Positions 24,443 through 36,677 of a stretch of DNA of 64,000 bases are shown piece by piece (the first letter of the stretch is position 1; each line of letters opens with the position of its first letter). Position numbers and translations under genes: made by a program. The stretch covers positions 882,394 to 946,393 of the forward strand of contig OY282377.1 in assembly GCA_958295785.1 (NCBI GenBank), in the 5' to 3' direction. Source of the stretch: an uncultured Latescibacterota bacterium (GTDB taxonomy: Bacteria; Latescibacterota; UBA2968). Below the pieces are notes generated by a model, which had not been told where the DNA came from, searched no databases, and saw nothing but the letters and a program-made list of their open reading frames with translations.

Positions 24443-25696
24443 ATGGGCAAAAGAGTCGCAAAAATTGAAAACGCGCTCGAAGATATTCGCGCGGGCAAAA
24501 TCGTCATTGTGGTCGATGACGAAGACCGGGAAAACGAAGGCGATTTCATTATGGCGGCGGAAAAGGCGACCGCCCAAGCCATCAATTTTATGGCGCGCTA
24601 TGGGCGTGGGTTGATCTGCTTGCCCGCAACGCCCGACCGCCTCAAAGATCTCGACTTGGATATGATGGTCAATACCAACACCGCGCTACACGGCACCCCG
24701 TTCACCGTGAGCATCGACGCGCTCTACGGCGTGAGCACGGGCATTTCGGCACAGGATCGCGCGGAAACCATTCGGCAATTTGTCGATCCCCAATCGCGGC
24801 CCGAAAGTTTTGGTCGCCCCGGTCACATCTTTCCATTGCGCGCCATGCCCGGTGGGGTTTTGCGCCGCGCGGGGCACACCGAAGCAGCGGTCGATCTCGC
24901 ACGGCTGGCTGGCCTATCTCCCGTCGGCGTGTTGTGCGAAATACTAAATGAAGACGGCACCATGGCCCGCTTGCCGCAACTTTTGGAATTTGCCGCGCAA
25001 TTCGATTTGAACGTGGTGACGATTCACGACTTGATCGCCTATCGCCGCCGTTCCGAAAAACTCGTGCGCTGTGTGGAGCAAGTGGATTTGCCCACGCGAT
25101 TCGGCGCGTTTCAGTTGCACCTCTACGAAAGCGATGTAGATGACCGGGAGCATGTGGCATTGGTCAAGGGCGATCTCTCTAACGGCACGCCCGTGTTGGT
25201 GCGGATGCACTCGGAGTGTTTGACCGGCGATGCCTTGGGGTCATTGCGCTGCGATTGCGAGAAGAATTTGCACTCGGCCCTCGAGATGATTGAAGACGCA
25301 GGCCGCGGCGCGTTGGTGTACATGCGACAGGAAGGCCGGGGAATCGGGTTGCGGGCAAAATTGCACGCCTACAAATTGCAGGAAGATGGCTACGATACCG
25401 TGGAGGCCAATTTGAAACTCGGGTTTAAAATGGACGAACGCGATTATGGCATTGGCGCGCAAATTTTGTCGGATTTGGGGATCCGCAAGGTCAAACTCAT
25501 CACCAACAACCCATCGAAGCGCGTGGGGTTAGAGGCTTATGGAATCGAGATCGTGGATCGCGTTCCGGTCGCCATTCAGGTCAACAGGTGGAATTTGACC
25601 TACATGCGAACCAAACGGGAAAAAATGGGACATCTGTTTCGAGAAGGCGATCTGCAAGTGCGCGAGGAAGGAGACCGCGATGCCCAAAATTTATGA
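24443..25696 (+). CDS. ribBA: bifunctional 3,4-dihydroxy-2-butanone-4-phosphate synthase / GTP cyclohydrolase II
   Basis: 417 aa. The N-terminal RibB half has the acidic metal-binding [12 protein letters not shown] and [14 protein letters not shown]; the C-terminal RibA half has the zinc site ([17 protein letters not shown]), the catalytic RQEGRGIGL and [15 protein letters not shown]. The protein thus supplies both branch precursors of riboflavin. It overlaps ribH by 17 bases. No catalytic residue looks replaced. Confidence 0.97.
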
Positions 25697-26153
25697 GGGA
25701 CAATTGTCCGCCCAAGGCAAGCGATTCGGCATTGTGGTGGGCCGGTTCAATGCGTTTATCGGCAAGGAATTGCTCGGCGGCGCGCTCGACTGCATTGCGC
25801 GACACGGCGGCGATACAGACGCCGTGGAGGTGGTGTGGGTGCCGGGCAGTTTTGAAATTCCGATGATGGCGCGCAAGATGGCGCGAAGCGGTCGGTATGA
25901 CGCACTGATTTGCTTGGGCACTGTGATCAGGGGTAGCACGCCGCATTTTGACTACGTGTGCAGCGAAGCCGCAAAAGGCGTGGCGGCTGTGGGATGCGAA
26001 ACCGGCGTGCCCGCGATGTTTGGAATTTTGACCACCGATACCATTGAACAGGCCATAGAGCGGGCCGGCACAAAAGCCGGCAACAAGGGTTGGGAAGCCG
26101 CCTTAGGCGCGATTGAAATGGTCAATGTCGCCGCTACATGGGAGGAAGGGTAA
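25680..26153 (+). CDS. ribH: 6,7-dimethyl-8-ribityllumazine synthase
   Basis: 157 aa. Typical motifs: [41 protein letters not shown] and FGILTTDT. It condenses the butanone phosphate from RibB with the ribityl-pyrimidine. The start ATG follows an AGGAAGGAGA-like site inside ribBA, and the stop TAA shares a base with the nusB ATG (TAATG). Confidence 0.97.
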
Positions 26154-27364: not shown

Positions 27365-30300
27365 ATGAATTTTCTCACAAAAATTTTCGGCAACAAACAC
27401 GACCGCGACGTCAAAAAGATGCAGCCGGTTGTGGATGAAATCAACCAATACTACGAAGAATACGCCGGTTTGTCTGACGGGGCATTGAAAGAGAAGACAA
27501 CGGCGTTTCGCACGCGCATTGCAGAAGCCACAGCCGATGCCCAAAAGCATTTGGCCGCGCTCAGAGAAGAATTGGCCGCGTTGCAACGAGACGAAGACCG
27601 CACCGAGCAGTTGGAAGATATCGCCGAGGTCGAAGCCGAAATCAAGGAGATCGAGCGCGAGGTGCTCGATGAGATTCACCCACAAGCGTTTGCGGTTTTT
27701 AAGGAAACGTGCCGCCGCTTCAAGGAACGGGGCAAGTCGTGGGATCGCGCAGGCGATCAAATTGTGTGGCACGAGATTCCCTACGACGTGCAATTGATCG
27801 GCGCGACCGTGTTGCATCAGGGCAAAATCGCCGAGATGGCCACAGGCGAGGGCAAAACCCTGGCCGCGGGCCTGGCCTTGTACTTGAATGGCCTGCTCGG
27901 GCGCGGCGTGCATCTGGTCACGGTCAATTCCTATCTGGCCAAGCGCGACGCCATGTGGCTGGGGCCTGTGTACTTGTCCCTCGGTCTCACGGTTGGGGTG
28001 ATCCAGGACCGCGCATTGGGCGTGGAGGGTTTTATCATGGAAGAGGATGGCGCAGATGGCTATCGCATGCGCGATTGCGACCACAAAGAAGCCTGCCAGA
28101 TGGATATTGTCTATGGCACGAAGGACCAGTTTGGGTTTGATTATCTGTACGACAACATGGCGATTCACCCCGACGATTTGATCCAGCGCGAGCACTATTT
28201 TGCGATTATCGACGAGGTGGATAGCATTTTGATCGACGAGGCGCGCACGCCGTTGATCATTTCAGGCCCCGTGCCCGAATCCACGTCGCATCGGTACGAA
28301 GAAAGGCGTCCCCTAGTCGAAAAATTGGTGCGGGCGCAAACCCGCGTGATCAGTGATATTTTGAAGCGCGCAGAAGAAGAACTCGAGTCGGGCGATGAAT
28401 ACGCGGGCGGCGTGTTGTTGTTGCAGGTGCAGCGCGGCATGCCCAAGAACAAACGCTTTATGAAGCGGCTTCAGGAAGAGGGCGTCAAACGCTTGGTGCA
28501 GCGCGTGGAGGCCGATTACATCCGCGACAAGCGCACCGGGGAATTGGACGAAGACCTCTATTTTAGCATCGACGAAAAGAGCCACATCATCGACCTGACG
28601 GAAAAGGGCCGCGATGAAATCAGCCGCAAGCCAGACGATTTCGTGTTGCCCGATCTCGATGAAGTCCTGCGGAATATCGCACAAAATACATCGCTCTCAG
28701 ACGCGGAAAGAGACGCATTGCAAGAAGCCGCCTATCGGGATTACGGCGAAAAGAACGAGTCCATCCACAGCGTGCGAAAATTGTTGCAGGCGTATTCGCT
28801 CTACGAAAAGGACGTGCAGTATATGATCGAAGAGGGCAAGGTGATCATCGTGGATGAATTTACCGGACGACCCCAGCCCGGCCGCCGGTTTGCCGATGGT
28901 TTGCATCAGGCCCTCGAAGCCAAAGAAAAGGTGAAGGTGGAACGCGACACGCAGACTGTTGCGACCATTACATTGCAAAATTATTTCAGGCTCTATGACC
29001 GCTTGGCGGGCATGACGGGCACTGCCGAGACCGAGTCCGAAGAATTTCACCAAATTTACAAACTCGACGTGGTGGCGATTCCAACGCACGAGCCGGTGCG
29101 CCGCATTGACTCCAATGACTGGATCTACCGCACAAAACGCGAAAAATACAATGCCGTGATCGATGAAATTACGCGCTTAAATGAACAAAAGTTGCCGGTT
29201 TTGGTGGGCACGATTTCCGTTGAAACATCCGAACTCATTTCGCGGGTGCTCTCGCGCAAAAAAATCAAACACCAAGTGCTCAATGCGCGGCAAAACGCGC
29301 AAGAAGCGCAGATCATCGCGCAGGCCGGGCAACCGGGCGCGGTGACCATAGCGACCAACATGGCCGGGCGCGGCACGGATATCAAACTCGGCGAGGGCGT
29401 GGTCAAAGCCCCCGAAGGGCATCGGTGCGCGTTGATTGCCAATTCGAATAACGGCCAACCCCCGTGCCCATACATAGAGGAATACGGGTGTCGGGACGAA
29501 GTCCCGTGTGGGTTGAATATTATCGGCACGGAACGACACGAATCGAGGCGCATTGACCGGCAGTTGCGCGGCAGGGCAGGGCGGCAGGGCGATCCGGGCA
29601 GTTCGCGGTTTTTCATTTCCTTGGAAGACGATTTGATGCGCTTGTTCGGCTCTGAGCGCATTGCCCGCGTGATGGACCGCTTGGGCGCCGAAGAAGACGA
29701 GGTGATCGAACACGGATGGGTGACAAAGTCTATCGAAACCGCGCAAAAGCGCGTGGAAGCGCGCAATTTTGAATTTCGGAAGCAGGTGCTGGATTACGAC
29801 GACGTGATGAATCAGCAGCGCGAAGTGATTTACGACAGGCGCAGGCACGCATTGGAAGAAGAAGATATTTCGGCGATGATCAGCGAAATGATCGACGATA
29901 CGGTCGATGCCCTGTTCGAGATTCACGTCCCGGCAGACGCGCATCCGGAAGATTGGAACTTCGATGGCTTGCTAAACGATTTGCGCCATGTGTTTTTGCA
30001 AGCCCCGGTGATTTCCGACGAGGAGTTGACCACCTTGCGCGAATCCGGGTTGCGCGACCGCGTGTTGCACGGGATCCGAGAAGCCTATGACCGCCGCGAG
30101 CGGGTGATCGGCGAAAACCGCATGCGGCAGATTGAGCGCATGATCTATTTGAGCGTTTTCGATGAAAAGTGGAAAGAACACCTCCGCGAGATGGACGATC
30201 TCAAAGAGGGTATTGGCCTGCGCGGTTACGGGCAAAAGAATCCATTGATCGAATACAAGCGCGAAGGCTATGAGATGTTTGTCGCGCTGCTCGAAGACAT

Positions 30301-30583
30301 CAACCGCGAGACATTGCGCTTGCTCTTCCGCATTTCCGTTGAAGAAACCCCCGCACCATCGTGCACTCGGCAGCCCGTCCGCCTGTCGTTGGAACACCGC
30401 GATGCAACGGGAATGGGCTTTGCCGGCATGCCCGAGCCTGATTCCGATGAATTGACCGCCAACTCTTCAGAAGGTGGGGCAGCCAAAAAACAGCCGGTGC
30501 GAGTCCAAAAAAAGGTGGGGCGCAACGAACTCTGCCCGTGCGGTAGCAAAAAGAAGTACAAGCATTGCCACGGAAGACTTTGA
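27365..30583 (+). CDS. secA: preprotein translocase ATPase SecA
   Basis: 1072 aa. Walker A MATGEGKTLAAGL (about 158-170), DEAD-type IIDEVDSILIDEAR, TNMAGRGTDIKLG and RQLRGRAGRQGDPGSSRF are intact. The C-terminus carries the zinc SEC-C motif CPCGSKKKYKHCHG, used for SecB and phospholipid contact. Two features differ from the short E. coli-type protein: an N-terminal charged coiled-coil stretch (about 55-100) that pushes Walker A some 50 residues later, and a roughly 30-residue Cys-bearing insertion (HRCALIANSNNGQPPCPYIE, then YGCRDEVPCG) just before IGTERHESRR. The gene is followed after 25 bases by the PRTase-like gene. Confidence 0.97.
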   Translation: MNFLTKIFGNKHDRDVKKMQPVVDEINQYYEEYAGLSDGALKEKTTAFRTRIAEATADAQKHLAALREELAALQRDEDRTEQLEDIAEVEAEIKEIEREVLDEIHPQAFAVFKETCRRFKERGKSWDRAGDQIVWHEIPYDVQLIGATVLHQGKIAEMATGEGKTLAAGLALYLNGLLGRGVHLVTVNSYLAKRDAMWLGPVYLSLGLTVGVIQDRALGVEGFIMEEDGADGYRMRDCDHKEACQMDIVYGTKDQFGFDYLYDNMAIHPDDLIQREHYFAIIDEVDSILIDEARTPLIISGPVPESTSHRYEERRPLVEKLVRAQTRVISDILKRAEEELESGDEYAGGVLLLQVQRGMPKNKRFMKRLQEEGVKRLVQRVEADYIRDKRTGELDEDLYFSIDEKSHIIDLTEKGRDEISRKPDDFVLPDLDEVLRNIAQNTSLSDAERDALQEAAYRDYGEKNESIHSVRKLLQAYSLYEKDVQYMIEEGKVIIVDEFTGRPQPGRRFADGLHQALEAKEKVKVERDTQTVATITLQNYFRLYDRLAGMTGTAETESEEFHQIYKLDVVAIPTHEPVRRIDSNDWIYRTKREKYNAVIDEITRLNEQKLPVLVGTISVETSELISRVLSRKKIKHQVLNARQNAQEAQIIAQAGQPGAVTIATNMAGRGTDIKLGEGVVKAPEGHRCALIANSNNGQPPCPYIEEYGCRDEVPCGLNIIGTERHESRRIDRQLRGRAGRQGDPGSSRFFISLEDDLMRLFGSERIARVMDRLGAEEDEVIEHGWVTKSIETAQKRVEARNFEFRKQVLDYDDVMNQQREVIYDRRRHALEEEDISAMISEMIDDTVDALFEIHVPADAHPEDWNFDGLLNDLRHVFLQAPVISDEELTTLRESGLRDRVLHGIREAYDRRERVIGENRMRQIERMIYLSVFDEKWKEHLREMDDLKEGIGLRGYGQKNPLIEYKREGYEMFVALLEDINRETLRLLFRISVEETPAPSCTRQPVRLSLEHRDATGMGFAGMPEPDSDELTANSSEGGAAKKQPVRVQKKVGRNELCPCGSKKKYKHCHGRL

Positions 30584-30608: not shown

Positions 30609-31664
30609 TTGAACGAGCGTAGCACACTGTTGGCTTCTGTCGCTGACACTATCGAGGACTACCGGGCGGGCGAGATTGTCCAACCGACGCCAGATCATGT
30701 CGACCAGTGGGTATGTCAGTTTGACAAGACTGTACAGGTTCCCTTACTGCGTGAAATGGACTATGTGCTCAAAAGGACCTACTTCTCGAACTCTGATGTA
30801 AACCGATTTTTTACAAAACTTGTTGAAAATAAGCAACTTGCTAGTGACAATCCGCACGATTTTTGGCACGATGCAACAATGCTCGATATCCAGAGTCGGG
30901 GACATAGCCAAACGGAAATCAGAGAATTGTTCGGGGAAGCACTCAATGGAAAGTACGGACTGAACATTGACAAATGCGGTTCAATAGGTGGAGCCTTTAT
31001 CTATTTGGATGATGCACTTTTCACTGGCGGACGCATTGGTGCAGACCTTTCGAATTGGATAGAGAAGGGACCAAAGAAAGCCACGTTGCATATCGTTGTT
31101 ATTGCGACCCACAGTTTTGGAGAGTGGAAGTGCAAAGAGCGTCTTCGTAACGTTGCTAGTGAGGCGGAGAAGGATATTGACCTTCACATTTGGGTTGCTA
31201 TTCGTTTTGAGAACAGGAAATTCTATCGCCGCATATCCGAAGTGCTTTGGCCAATAGAACTTCCCGATGAGAACGAAGTACAAAACTACGTACAAAGTGA
31301 AACGAAATTTCCGTTTGAACCACGTCAGCTTGGTGGAAGGTTAAGGAACGATATATTTTTTTCGGAAAATGGGCGTCAACGACTCGAGCGAGAACTCTTA
31401 TTGGCGGGAGTAAGGATCCGATCATTTTGCGCCGATCCGAGCCCAGCGATGCGACCTCTTGGATTTGGCCCATTTGGCCTCGGGTTTGGTTCGATGATCG
31501 TGACATTCAGAAATTGCCCCAATAATTGTCCACTCGCGCTTTGGTGGGGCGATCCCAAGGCCCCTTCTCATCATCCCCTCAGCCTGTGGTACCCACTTTT
31601 GCCACGCAAGACATATAGCCATGATCCAAGTTTCGACGACATCAACTTCTGGCAATCGCCATAA
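30609..31664 (+). CDS. phosphoribosyltransferase-like (PRTase-CE-type) conflict-system protein
   Basis: 351 aa from a TTG at 30609 with TAGGACAC upstream; this start begins just after secA. The key segment is GGAFIYLDDALFTGGRIG, with the acidic pair at Asp134-Asp135, matching the PRPP-loop pattern of phosphoribosyltransferases. The C-terminus (VTFRNCPNNCPLALWWGD, then WYPLLPRKTY) resembles a family of PRTase-like proteins found in predicted bacterial conflict operons. Its 3' end overlaps the NADAR gene by 44 bases. GC content and codon use are lower than in secA, which suggests horizontal gain. Substrate unknown; a role in nucleotide or NAD-linked defence is inference. Confidence 0.65.
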   Translation: MNERSTLLASVADTIEDYRAGEIVQPTPDHVDQWVCQFDKTVQVPLLREMDYVLKRTYFSNSDVNRFFTKLVENKQLASDNPHDFWHDATMLDIQSRGHSQTEIRELFGEALNGKYGLNIDKCGSIGGAFIYLDDALFTGGRIGADLSNWIEKGPKKATLHIVVIATHSFGEWKCKERLRNVASEAEKDIDLHIWVAIRFENRKFYRRISEVLWPIELPDENEVQNYVQSETKFPFEPRQLGGRLRNDIFFSENGRQRLERELLLAGVRIRSFCADPSPAMRPLGFGPFGLGFGSMIVTFRNCPNNCPLALWWGDPKAPSHHPLSLWYPLLPRKTYSHDPSFDDINFWQSP

Positions 31665-32382
31665 CGGACAGACGCGAACCTACGACCGCGCTACCAGTAT
31701 TGTGTTTCTCAAAACAAGAGAAGCTTTCGGCGGATTGTCCAATATGGCTGGTGGTTTTCCCTTGTGTGTGAACGGTATCTACATTCGCACATCCGAGGCT
31801 CTGTATCAAGCCTGTCGTTTTCCGCACTTACCTGCCGTGCAAAGGGCAATTATTGAACAAAGAAGCCCAATGACAGCCAAGATGAAGAGCAGAAAGCATC
31901 AACGGCAGTCGCGCCCGGATTGGGACTTGGTTCGAGTCAAGATCATGCGTTGGTGTTTGCGGGTGAAGCTTACACAGAACTGGGGTGCGTTCGGCGATCT
32001 CCTGCTGGAGACTGGCGATCAACCGATCGTTGAGCAATCCCGGAAGGATGGTTTCTGGGGTGCTGAACCTGTGGACAAACGCACCCTTGTTGGCGTGAAT
32101 GCGCTTGGGCGGTTGCTGATGGAACTGAGAGAGGTTGTCAAAATTGAAGGCAAGGAATCGTTCTTTTGGGTAGAGCCACTCGATATTGTGGATTTTTTGC
32201 TCAACGGGCATCCCATTGAGACAGTCGTTGCGCCAGATGATAGGGCAGTTGCGATGATCGCAAAGTCCACAGAACATCTGTCTTATGCTGATACCCGAAA
32301 AACGATAGGAGTACAACCATCACTTTTTAATCCGTCAGTAGTTGAGGAACTCTCGCCACCCGAATATGTAGGCAAAAAATAA
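31621..32382 (+). CDS. NADAR domain protein (YbiA/DUF1768-like)
   Basis: 253 aa from the ATG at 31621. The NADAR fold shows FGGLSNMAGGFPL, TSEALYQACRFP, the Lys/Arg-rich MTAKMKSRKHQ, LLETGDQPIVEQS with DGFWGAEP, and VGVNALGRLLMELRE. NADAR proteins act on NAD/ADP-ribose derivatives; some remove ADP-ribose from guanine and serve as antitoxins, others hydrolyse riboflavin intermediates. About 85 residues follow the domain without a recognised match. It overlaps the PRTase-like gene, so the two form one translated unit. The pairing with a PRTase points to a nucleotide-based conflict module rather than the riboflavin role, though rib genes lie 5 kb upstream. Confidence 0.82.
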   Translation: MIQVSTTSTSGNRHNGQTRTYDRATSIVFLKTREAFGGLSNMAGGFPLCVNGIYIRTSEALYQACRFPHLPAVQRAIIEQRSPMTAKMKSRKHQRQSRPDWDLVRVKIMRWCLRVKLTQNWGAFGDLLLETGDQPIVEQSRKDGFWGAEPVDKRTLVGVNALGRLLMELREVVKIEGKESFFWVEPLDIVDFLLNGHPIETVVAPDDRAVAMIAKSTEHLSYADTRKTIGVQPSLFNPSVVEELSPPEYVGKK

Positions 32383-35237: not shown

Positions 35238-36677
35238 ATGGCAAAAACAAAAACTCAGGTTGACGAACCCCAAGCCGCGACAGCAAAACGTCCGGCAAAA
35301 AAGCGTGCGACCAAAAAGCCGGCAAAGAAACAGCGCGCAACCCAAACGACAGAGGAGACGGACGACGCCACATCCTCTGCACCGCGCACAGCGAAAAAGT
35401 CTGCAAAAAAACCGGTGAAGAAGCCTGCGAAGAAACAACGGGCGACTACAAAAAAAGAGGAGACGGACGACGCCACATCCTCTGCACCGCGCACAGCGAA
35501 AAAGTCTGCAAAAAAACCGGTGAAGAAGCCTGCGAAGAAACAACGGGCGACTACAAAAAAAGAGGAGACGGACGACGCCACATCCTCTGCGCCACGCACA
35601 GCGAAAAAACGCACTACCAAAAAGCCAGCCAAGAAGCCTGCGAAGAAACAGCGGGCGACCTCAAAAAAAGAGGAGACGGACGACGCCACATCCTCTGCGC
35701 CGCGCACAGCGAAAAAGCGGTCAACCAAAGAGCCAGCGAAAAAAGCCAAAAAGCCGGCGAAAAAGGCCAAGAAGCCCGCCGCAACAGAAGCGCGTGCAGA
35801 GACGACGCCACCCAAACCGACCGAGGCAGAGGAAAAGATCGAAGCAACGGCTTCTGCGGATCGAGATGAAAACAAAGTTGAAACTACGGCTTCTATTGAT
35901 CAAGCTCAAAACAAGGTCGGAACAGCGGCTTCTGCGGATCGAGATGAAAACAAGGTTGAAACAACGGCTTCTATTAATCGAGCGCGAAAAGCAGAACCGG
36001 CCGGACAAACGCCTCAAGAGCAGCCTGAGAGCACAGAAGAAATGCAGTGGGGGCGGCGTTCCAAGCGGTCAGGGCCTATTGGCTGGGAAGGTCGCGCAGG
36101 CGTCAGCACACCCGTTCAATCCACTCGGCGGGCGGACGCGCAGGCAGACGCACCAGCCGTTGAAACCCCCGTTGAACCAGAGCCAAAAGCACCGCCGACT
36201 CGCACGACCCAAGGACGCAATCGCAACGAACAAAACGATCGGGATACACAGCGGCCTTCAAGCAGTCGCAGTAGGAATGAGAAGAAGCCCGACGGGGTTT
36301 CGCGCAAACTCGCAGAAATTTTGGCGCAATCGTGGACAGAAGACAAAACCCGTCGCTTTCTCAGCGAGGGCTTTCTGAGCAGTTTGTCCGCCGAGTTGGT
36401 CGATAATGAAAAACAGGCATCCCTCCCAGACGCCGAGGCACTCAAAAAACCCTTGGAGATGATCCGCAAGGTTTTGGCCGATGAGTGCATGGTTGCAGAC
36501 GATGTGACAGATTTGATGTTGCTCGACATGGTGATGAATGCCCTGTCCGACCGCATTGCCGTGTGTCGGCTACAGGCCGAGTCGAACTCGCTGGCAGATA
36601 TTGACGTGATTTTAGAATTGCGCTACAAAGCGGACCGGCGATTGATCGAAGCCGTGAATGCCCTGAAGAATGCGTGA
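35238..36677 (+). CDS. histone H1-like Lys/Ala-rich repeat protein with conserved C-terminal domain
   Basis: 479 aa. Residues 1-185 are a basic, Lys/Ala/Pro-rich region of AKKPAKK type with four repeats of about 35 aa, each holding EETDDATSSAPRTAKK; this resembles bacterial histone H1-like or AlgP-like tails that bind DNA. Residues 190-260 form a second, acidic repeat (ASADRDENKVETTASI and variants). After a Pro/Gln/Arg-rich linker, residues 350-479 form a folded-looking alpha-helical domain (RKLAEILAQSWTEDKTRRFL) that I do not recognise. It has its own promoter and terminator. The repeats make copy-number change likely. DNA or RNA binding is inference. Confidence 0.75.
   Translation: MAKTKTQVDEPQAATAKRPAKKRATKKPAKKQRATQTTEETDDATSSAPRTAKKSAKKPVKKPAKKQRATTKKEETDDATSSAPRTAKKSAKKPVKKPAKKQRATTKKEETDDATSSAPRTAKKRTTKKPAKKPAKKQRATSKKEETDDATSSAPRTAKKRSTKEPAKKAKKPAKKAKKPAATEARAETTPPKPTEAEEKIEATASADRDENKVETTASIDQAQNKVGTAASADRDENKVETTASINRARKAEPAGQTPQEQPESTEEMQWGRRSKRSGPIGWEGRAGVSTPVQSTRRADAQADAPAVETPVEPEPKAPPTRTTQGRNRNEQNDRDTQRPSSSRSRNEKKPDGVSRKLAEILAQSWTEDKTRRFLSEGFLSSLSAELVDNEKQASLPDAEALKKPLEMIRKVLADECMVADDVTDLMLLDMVMNALSDRIAVCRLQAESNSLADIDVILELRYKADRRLIEAVNALKNA
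35356..35780 (+). repeat. 105-108-bp tandem repeats coding the basic tail
   Basis: Units begin at AGACGGACGACGCC at 35356, 35461, 35566 and 35674, giving periods of 105, 105 and 108 bases. The first two are nearly identical at DNA level, a sign of recent duplication or homogenisation. Confidence 0.9.

Follow-up and report, generated by a model that had tools for sequence, protein, structure and literature searches.

A DS-32 gene pair inserted behind secA in a Latescibacterota genome, and sequence evidence suggesting a DNA tether for its NADAR subunit

Two overlapping genes between secA and a rhodanese gene, in a stretch of 64,000 nucleotides from an uncultured Latescibacterota bacterium (hereafter the window), represent by their profile scores a copy of the DS-32 system, as the products of both exceed the curated NCBIfam cut-offs for its subunits. 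Protein 1 matches NF053875 (DS32_1_antiphage) at 403.3 bits against a cut-off of 250, and protein 2 matches NF053876 (DS32_2_antiphage) at 278.1 bits against 240, in each case over the complete profile (1-322 and 1-181, respectively); the gene order is also that of DS-32, with the NADAR gene directly after the PRTase gene on the same strand. A comparison with more than 100 relatives further suggests that the replication sliding clamp or HsdS, the DNA-reading subunit of a restriction enzyme, holds the NADAR protein of DS-32 on DNA. The system itself is already known; the evidence for a DNA tether is new here, no description of it having been found in the literature searched. We tentatively favour, at somewhat less than an even chance, the explanation that the pair is an anti-phage module composed of a PRTase effector and a DNA-tethered NADAR antidote or gate.

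Table 1. Features of the inserted segment, in window positions, and related loci (loci of relatives carry L numbers)
Feature	Position	Strand	Remarks
secA	27365-30583	+	gene upstream of the pair
Inserted segment	30584..32385	+	from secA stop to rhodanese ribosome-binding region; ends approximate; ~1.8 kb
DS-32 subunit 1, PRTase-CE protein, 351 aa	30609..31664	+	TTG start, 25 nt past secA stop
PRPP loop IYLDDALFTGGR, residues 131-142	30999..31034	+	conserved across relatives
Signature RNCPNN, residues 301-306	31509..31526	+	invariant in PRTase family
PRTase tail FDDINF, predicted disordered	31632..31649	+	resembles FDDIDF/LDDFDF tails of R-M-embedded relatives
DS-32 subunit 2, NADAR protein, 253 aa	31621..32382	+	ATG start
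NADAR putative catalytic strip, E59 to R66	31795..31818	+	alignment to E88, K95 of E. coli C7 enzyme
NADAR putative catalytic strip, E138, D143, W146-G147	32032..32061	+	sequence conservation
QPSLF, NADAR residues 232-236, beta-sliding-clamp-binding-like motif	32314..32328	+	disordered tail; motif rules from PMC11139829
Likely NADAR-HsdS linker remnant NPSVVEELSPPEYVGKK	32329..32379	+	match to L007 linker
Type I R-M operons with built-in DS-32 pair	L006-L011, L014-L019, L031, L041, L047, L050-L052, L054-L056, L058, L060, others		

The inserted pair and its DS-32 identity

The insertion behind secA is real and recent. As a preliminary description made from the letters of the window had it, the two reading frames, both of which are open, overlap by exactly 44 bases between secA and the rhodanese gene, and the segment has a lower GC content than its neighbours (48.3% in the insert against 55.4% in secA and 54.4% in the whole window). 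The rhodanese gene, which lies immediately downstream of the NADAR gene in the window, was detected in 10 of 10 congeners at 81-84% identity. The insertion that the same description had proposed is borne out by an empty site in nine of these ten, with about 22-28 nt between the end of secA and the start of the rhodanese gene and no pair between them (in one of these secA contains a stretch of N, and the contig of the tenth congener ends at the site). Neither a transposase gene nor an obvious flanking repeat was seen in the junction sequence. Among other genomes of the phylum, members of the PRTase family were found in none of 59 and of the NADAR family in one of 63; with NADAR almost lacking in these relatives, selection tests have no close outgroup. 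Because the first gene begins 25 nt after the secA stop, the pair is likely transcribed from the secA side. Elsewhere, the host genome (5.66 Mb) is rich in R-M genes, with 27 Methylase_S and 32 N6_Mtase matches, and a 479-aa protein rich in Lys, Ala and Pro, in which a unit of ~33 aa (KKEETDDATSSAPRTAKK...PAKKQRAT) recurs several times almost unchanged, is encoded directly after groEL, at 35238-36677.

The pair had been described as a module of little-studied type, a label now outdated as both genes exceed the DS-32 cut-offs. DS names derive from DefensePredictor (Science 2026, PMC13092281), the source in which DS-32 was first described, in 2026, and which reports the validation of 42 transcription units with 24 phages in E. 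coli MG1655; a PRTase appears in its Figure 4 legend and NADAR proteins in its text. The link of NF053875 and NF053876 to the validated E. coli system runs through the NCBIfam naming, "32" being absent from the main text of that paper. Phage protection is reported there for the E. coli DS-32 alone (PMC13092281), and the window copy is assigned to the system by sequence. No mechanism for DS-32 was found in the literature searched. Among 5,426 complete E. coli genomes, 63 carry a DS-32-type pair or part of one. Both of the copies examined with wide flanks belong to lambdoid prophages, where they follow replication gene P and lie upstream of ybcN/ninE; one of the two encodes proteins that pass the NF053875/NF053876 cut-offs.

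Predicted folds and conserved active-site residues

The assignment of protein 1 to the PRTases, first made from its loop, held up in both profile and structure comparisons. It matches Pfam PF24390 (PRTase-CE) over the full profile with an E-value of 8.6e-55, and its AF2 model (pLDDT 92.9, with residues 338-351 under 50) has uracil PRTase as its best structural match (Z 9.5), followed by PyrR and HGPRT/purine PRTases, all the structural matches listed being PRTases or relatives of PRPP synthase. A sequence search of the PDB returned no matching chain, its single weak match being a nickel regulator. Hence, the model predicts a type I PRTase fold whose core contains a conserved PRPP loop. The segment FIYLDDALFTGGR (residues 130-142) spans this loop, in which Y132, D134 and G140 are invariant and D135, F138 and R142 nearly invariant across 61-66 relatives, and the pattern DDxxF(S/T)GxR is conserved in the PRTase relatives. 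To judge by the loop, the ligand is PRPP or a nucleotide 5'-phosphate.

Protein 2 contains, as had been recognized, a NADAR domain (Pfam PF08719, E 1.2e-23), and its model resembles E. coli YbiA most closely (Z 16.2, 37% identity), along with the ADP-ribose-bound Phytophthora NADAR (Z 15.9), the match to the DarT1-associated Geobacter NADAR being at Z 8.8 and 8% identity. The structural comparison thus places the window NADAR in the YbiA branch and not in the branch of DarT1 antitoxins. Given this placement and the ligand to which the PRTase loop points, the NAD basis earlier suggested for the pair finds no support. All 81 NADAR sequences compared share E59, R66, K87, W101, E138, W146 and G147, and by alignment E59 corresponds to E88, and R66 (as Arg) to K95, of the E. 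coli C7 enzyme; the catalytic residues of the window protein are intact. In that C7 NADAR the roles of E88 and K95 were shown by mutation, and the K95R form is active in vitro; NADARs also remove ADP-ribose from guanine in DNA, the reversal of a base adduct found in DarTG1 (PMC11543638).

YbiA-type NADARs cleave the N-glycosidic bonds of early riboflavin intermediates, free in solution. These intermediates are phosphoribosylamino-pyrimidines. Ordinary metabolism, with the NADAR as a riboflavin damage-control N-glycosidase and the PRTase as a salvage enzyme, would fit the NADAR barely passing TIGR02464 (74.6 against 73.7 bits) and a gene at 25680-26153, about 5 kb upstream, which we take to be ribH-like (lumazine synthase). 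We regard this as extremely improbable: the insert is missing from congeners that retain the neighbouring genes, the score against NF053876 is far above that against TIGR02464, and relatives of the pair are located in R-M loci and prophages.

Relatives of the pair and DNA-engaging attachments of the NADAR

The PRTase alignment, scanned against 84,980 species genomes, yielded 161 relatives, 80 of which were taken, and these 80 genome loci together with 33 viral contigs (IMG/VR) and 3 plasmid records form a set of 116 loci. An independent NADAR profile detected a NADAR gene directly downstream of the PRTase in 115 of them, and in the sole unpaired locus the contig ends 87 bases past the PRTase match. 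The pairing is thus far above chance, in agreement with the earlier proposal of a recurrent two-gene conflict module.

In many relatives the NADAR is part of a larger protein. 1) It is fused to HsdS in 46 of the 110 pairs measured, giving proteins of about 660-765 aa with HsdS after the NADAR domain, and 45 of these 46 loci have the order hsdM-PRTase-NADAR::hsdS-hsdR; at L007, for instance, HsdM matches at 818 bits and HsdS at 345 bits over its full length. As several of these loci come from cultured isolates, the fusion is not a binning artefact; isolates with the R-M-embedded form include Parvibaculum and Marinobacterium. 2) In five relatives (L012, L013, L040, L043, L078) it is fused to a DUF1156 (HmaB-like) methylase, with a helicase upstream of the pair in all five; PADLOC calls HmaB (402 bits) and HmaA (562 bits) in the one such locus examined, L013. 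The five are scattered on the tree and this coupling may therefore have arisen several times. 3) In L025 the NADAR carries a C-terminal helix-hairpin-helix (HHH) domain, and similar extensions occur in L038 and L061. All these attachments engage DNA. The earlier statement that no effector partner adjoins the pair holds for the window copy, but in about half of its relatives the NADAR is fused to a DNA-acting partner. A search of published papers on NADAR or PRTase with HsdS, HsdM, R-M or DUF1156 found no description of the fusion, which may have been described elsewhere.

The HsdS fusions also bear on a serious if unlikely possibility, namely that the NADAR and its tether keep the PRTase inactive on a host hub (the sliding clamp or HsdM/HsdS) and that a phage which inactivates or seizes the hub frees the PRTase, with no write/erase chemistry involved. 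The place between hsdM and hsdR and the fusion to HsdS recall guards of the PrrC type, PrrC being harmful to the cell once its type I R-M enzyme is inhibited by a phage, and the overlapping genes suggest a complex. Against such a guard, all the NADAR catalytic residues examined are invariant, whereas a pure scaffold needs none, and the non-specific HHH fusions offer no obvious hub. The same attachments weigh on the reading nearest to that of the preliminary description, in which the toxin or signal is a soluble nucleotide, either PRPP or a base derivative, that the PRTase makes or destroys and the NADAR degrades, the DNA attachments serving only in sensing. In structure the PRTase is nearest to uracil, purine and PyrR-type PRTases, of which several use free bases, and YbiA-type NADARs work on free riboflavin intermediates; however, it is not obvious what an enzyme hydrolysing a soluble signal would gain from HsdS, HmaB, HHH or a clamp motif, and we consider this reading improbable.

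A further putative attachment is a short motif in the tail of the NADAR. The consensus of beta-clamp ligands, QL(S/D)LF, has Gln at position 1, Leu/Met at 4 and Phe/Leu at 5 or 6, and is often C-terminal (PMC11139829). Stand-alone NADARs frequently end in QPALF, QPELF, QSELF, QSDMF, QINMF or QSLSLF, and the HsdS linkers carry QPSLF or QGSLF. Scored as Q.{2,3}[LM][FL] against 1,000 shuffles, the pattern was found in 21 of 31 stand-alone tails (shuffle mean 0.67, maximum 4) and in 33 of 40 HsdS-fused linkers (shuffle mean 1.32, maximum 6); at the very C-terminus it occurs in 16 of 31 stand-alone NADARs, as compared to 2 of 666 other genes of the same loci and 0 of 110 PRTases. The QPSLF region of the window protein is modelled with a pLDDT mostly under 50. 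Being of the QxxLF type, disordered and conserved, the window tail has the features of a beta-clamp ligand, and binding to DnaN is predicted for it. About a quarter of the NADAR tails lack a clean motif, which counts against the explanation we favour, and Pro at position 2, as present in the window QPSLF, is reported to disfavour Gln docking in MutL (PMC11139829).

DS-32-like NADARs that have no clamp-like motif, and no PRTase within the 2.3-3 kb preceding them, are encoded on phage or viral contigs (L154:3001-3642, L155:3067-3705, L192:2354-3115), the first of which is a 485-kb phage (LR745208.1, also entered as L170). The tail motif is absent from all six members of a small control set of NADARs without PRTase (L138, L154, L155, L192, L194, L195). 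A single-sequence scan of viral contigs for ordinary NADARs found nothing, and tblastn found no PRTase of the family in annotated phage records, while IMG/VR contigs do contain some. The phage NADARs without PRTase are candidates for an anti-DS-32 counter-defence. They also bear on the converse possibility that the NADAR is the weapon, a DNA-tethered N-glycosidase stripping bases or base adducts from phage DNA as it replicates, while the PRTase uses up the freed base together with PRPP and thereby drives the reaction or makes a product. Every DNA-engaging attachment sits on the NADAR, as this would predict, and a glycosidase with a PRTase is the usual pairing in base salvage. Yet phages would hardly be expected to carry a weapon against themselves, and the substrates of characterized NADARs are ribosyl adducts or free intermediates, base excision from DNA not being reported in the literature searched; we hold this possibility to be quite improbable. 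At L193:1470-3099 an intact PRTase stands beside a NADAR whose reading frame is shifted at an A-run (6 A in place of 7) in a copy otherwise nearly identical to another. This is either a sequencing error or a real loss of the NADAR; if real, it speaks against a strictly required antidote and weakens a strict toxin-antitoxin reading.

In a tree of the PRTase and NADAR domains the window falls in a supported set of 15 rows, comprising 10 HsdS-fused, 2 DUF1156-fused and 3 stand-alone pairs, including the window itself. The architecture label requires 17 changes on this tree, which is compatible with either gain or loss of the fusion. The 17 residues past QPSLF are best matched by the NADAR-HsdS linker of L007, DPLAVKETSSPEYASE, with 0 of 300 shuffles scoring as high, and the PRTase tail FDDINF resembles the FDDIDF of a PRTase from the HsdS clade. 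No hsdM, hsdS or hsdR adjoins the pair in the window, where the NADAR stops at 253 aa and is followed by the rhodanese gene. From the linker-like tail and the likeness of the PRTase tails we infer that the ancestor of the window pair was probably R-M-embedded and lost its HsdS, the pair now standing alone behind secA.

Proposed mechanism and comparison with known systems

Under the explanation we favour, of a PRTase effector with a tethered NADAR, the PRTase would be the harmful component, the role in which the preliminary description had also cast it. The sliding clamp would keep the NADAR on host DNA, in the window copy through QPSLF, or, in the R-M-embedded relatives, the NADAR would sit at restriction sites, and there it would reverse or restrain the action of the PRTase. 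This action would then fall on phage DNA replicated outside NADAR protection or on a phage interfering with the tether, and phage NADARs without PRTase and motif would be counter-defence, as expected of a captured antidote. This explanation draws further on the invariance of the active sites of both proteins and on the position of the E. coli pair beside the replication genes of lambdoid prophages. In the most economical chemistry the PRTase would put a phosphoribosyl group on a base and the NADAR would hydrolyse the resulting N-glycosidic bond, the tether keeping this eraser on the DNA of the cell itself; such joint addition and removal is suggested because YbiA-type NADARs cut N-glycosidic bonds and NADARs clear ADP-ribose from guanine in DNA. 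Stated in full, DS-32 would be a PRPP-dependent write/erase system on replicating DNA, in which the PRTase writes phosphoribose, a NADAR carried by the clamp or by the type I specificity subunit erases it on self DNA, and self is told from non-self by who replicates or methylates the DNA. We deem this specific proposal decidedly unlikely.

PRTase-like effectors recur across anti-phage systems, including retron type III-A, DprA-PRTase and DS-32, and the mode of action of the retron PRTase effectors has been called unknown (PMC9122126). The recurrent fusions of the NADAR (to HsdS, HmaB and HHH) and its conserved clamp-like motif implicate DNA as the site of action, probably close to the replication fork, and DS-32 appears as a defence module that has been repeatedly joined to and split from restriction systems.

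Among these systems, retron type III-A and the DprA-PRTase of P2-like phages share with the window pair a PRTase-like presumed effector, whereas no reverse transcriptase, winged-helix or DprA partner stands beside it. Profile matches of the window PRTase are in this respect only weak and partial (PRTase_III-A at 3.8e-5), and membership in retron type III-A was rejected, the adjoining genes being secA, NADAR and rhodanese, with no reverse transcriptase or DNA-binding protein. DarTG1, like the window pair, is a two-gene module, and its NADAR can reverse a sugar adduct on a base, as by analogy that of the window may do; its toxin is an ART, in contrast to the PRTase of the window, and membership in DarTG1 was likewise rejected, as no ADP-ribosyltransferase stands beside the NADAR and the neighbour has a predicted PRTase fold. 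The Hma systems (helicase, methylase, ATPase) are approached by the five relatives composed of a helicase (HmaA-like in L013), a PRTase and a NADAR fused to an HmaB-like methylase, unlike the window, which has no Hma-type genes beside the pair. The E. coli-type DS-32 and the window copy have in common the gene order, the active sites and the class of the NADAR tail motif (QSLSLF at the E. coli-type end), at identities of about 31% for the PRTase and 47% for the NADAR. They differ in location, the former being in a prophage and the latter a chromosomal insert behind secA, and in the extra 17-aa tail of the window NADAR, which is like the linker of an HsdS-fused relative. In the type I R-M loci with NADAR::HsdS (L006-L011, L014-L019, L047, L050 and others) hsdM, hsdS and hsdR are adjacent, in contrast to the window pair; the PRTases of the closest of these loci are 54-59% identical to that of the window, the type of PRTase tail is the same, and both share a NADAR linker with QPSLF or QTSLF.
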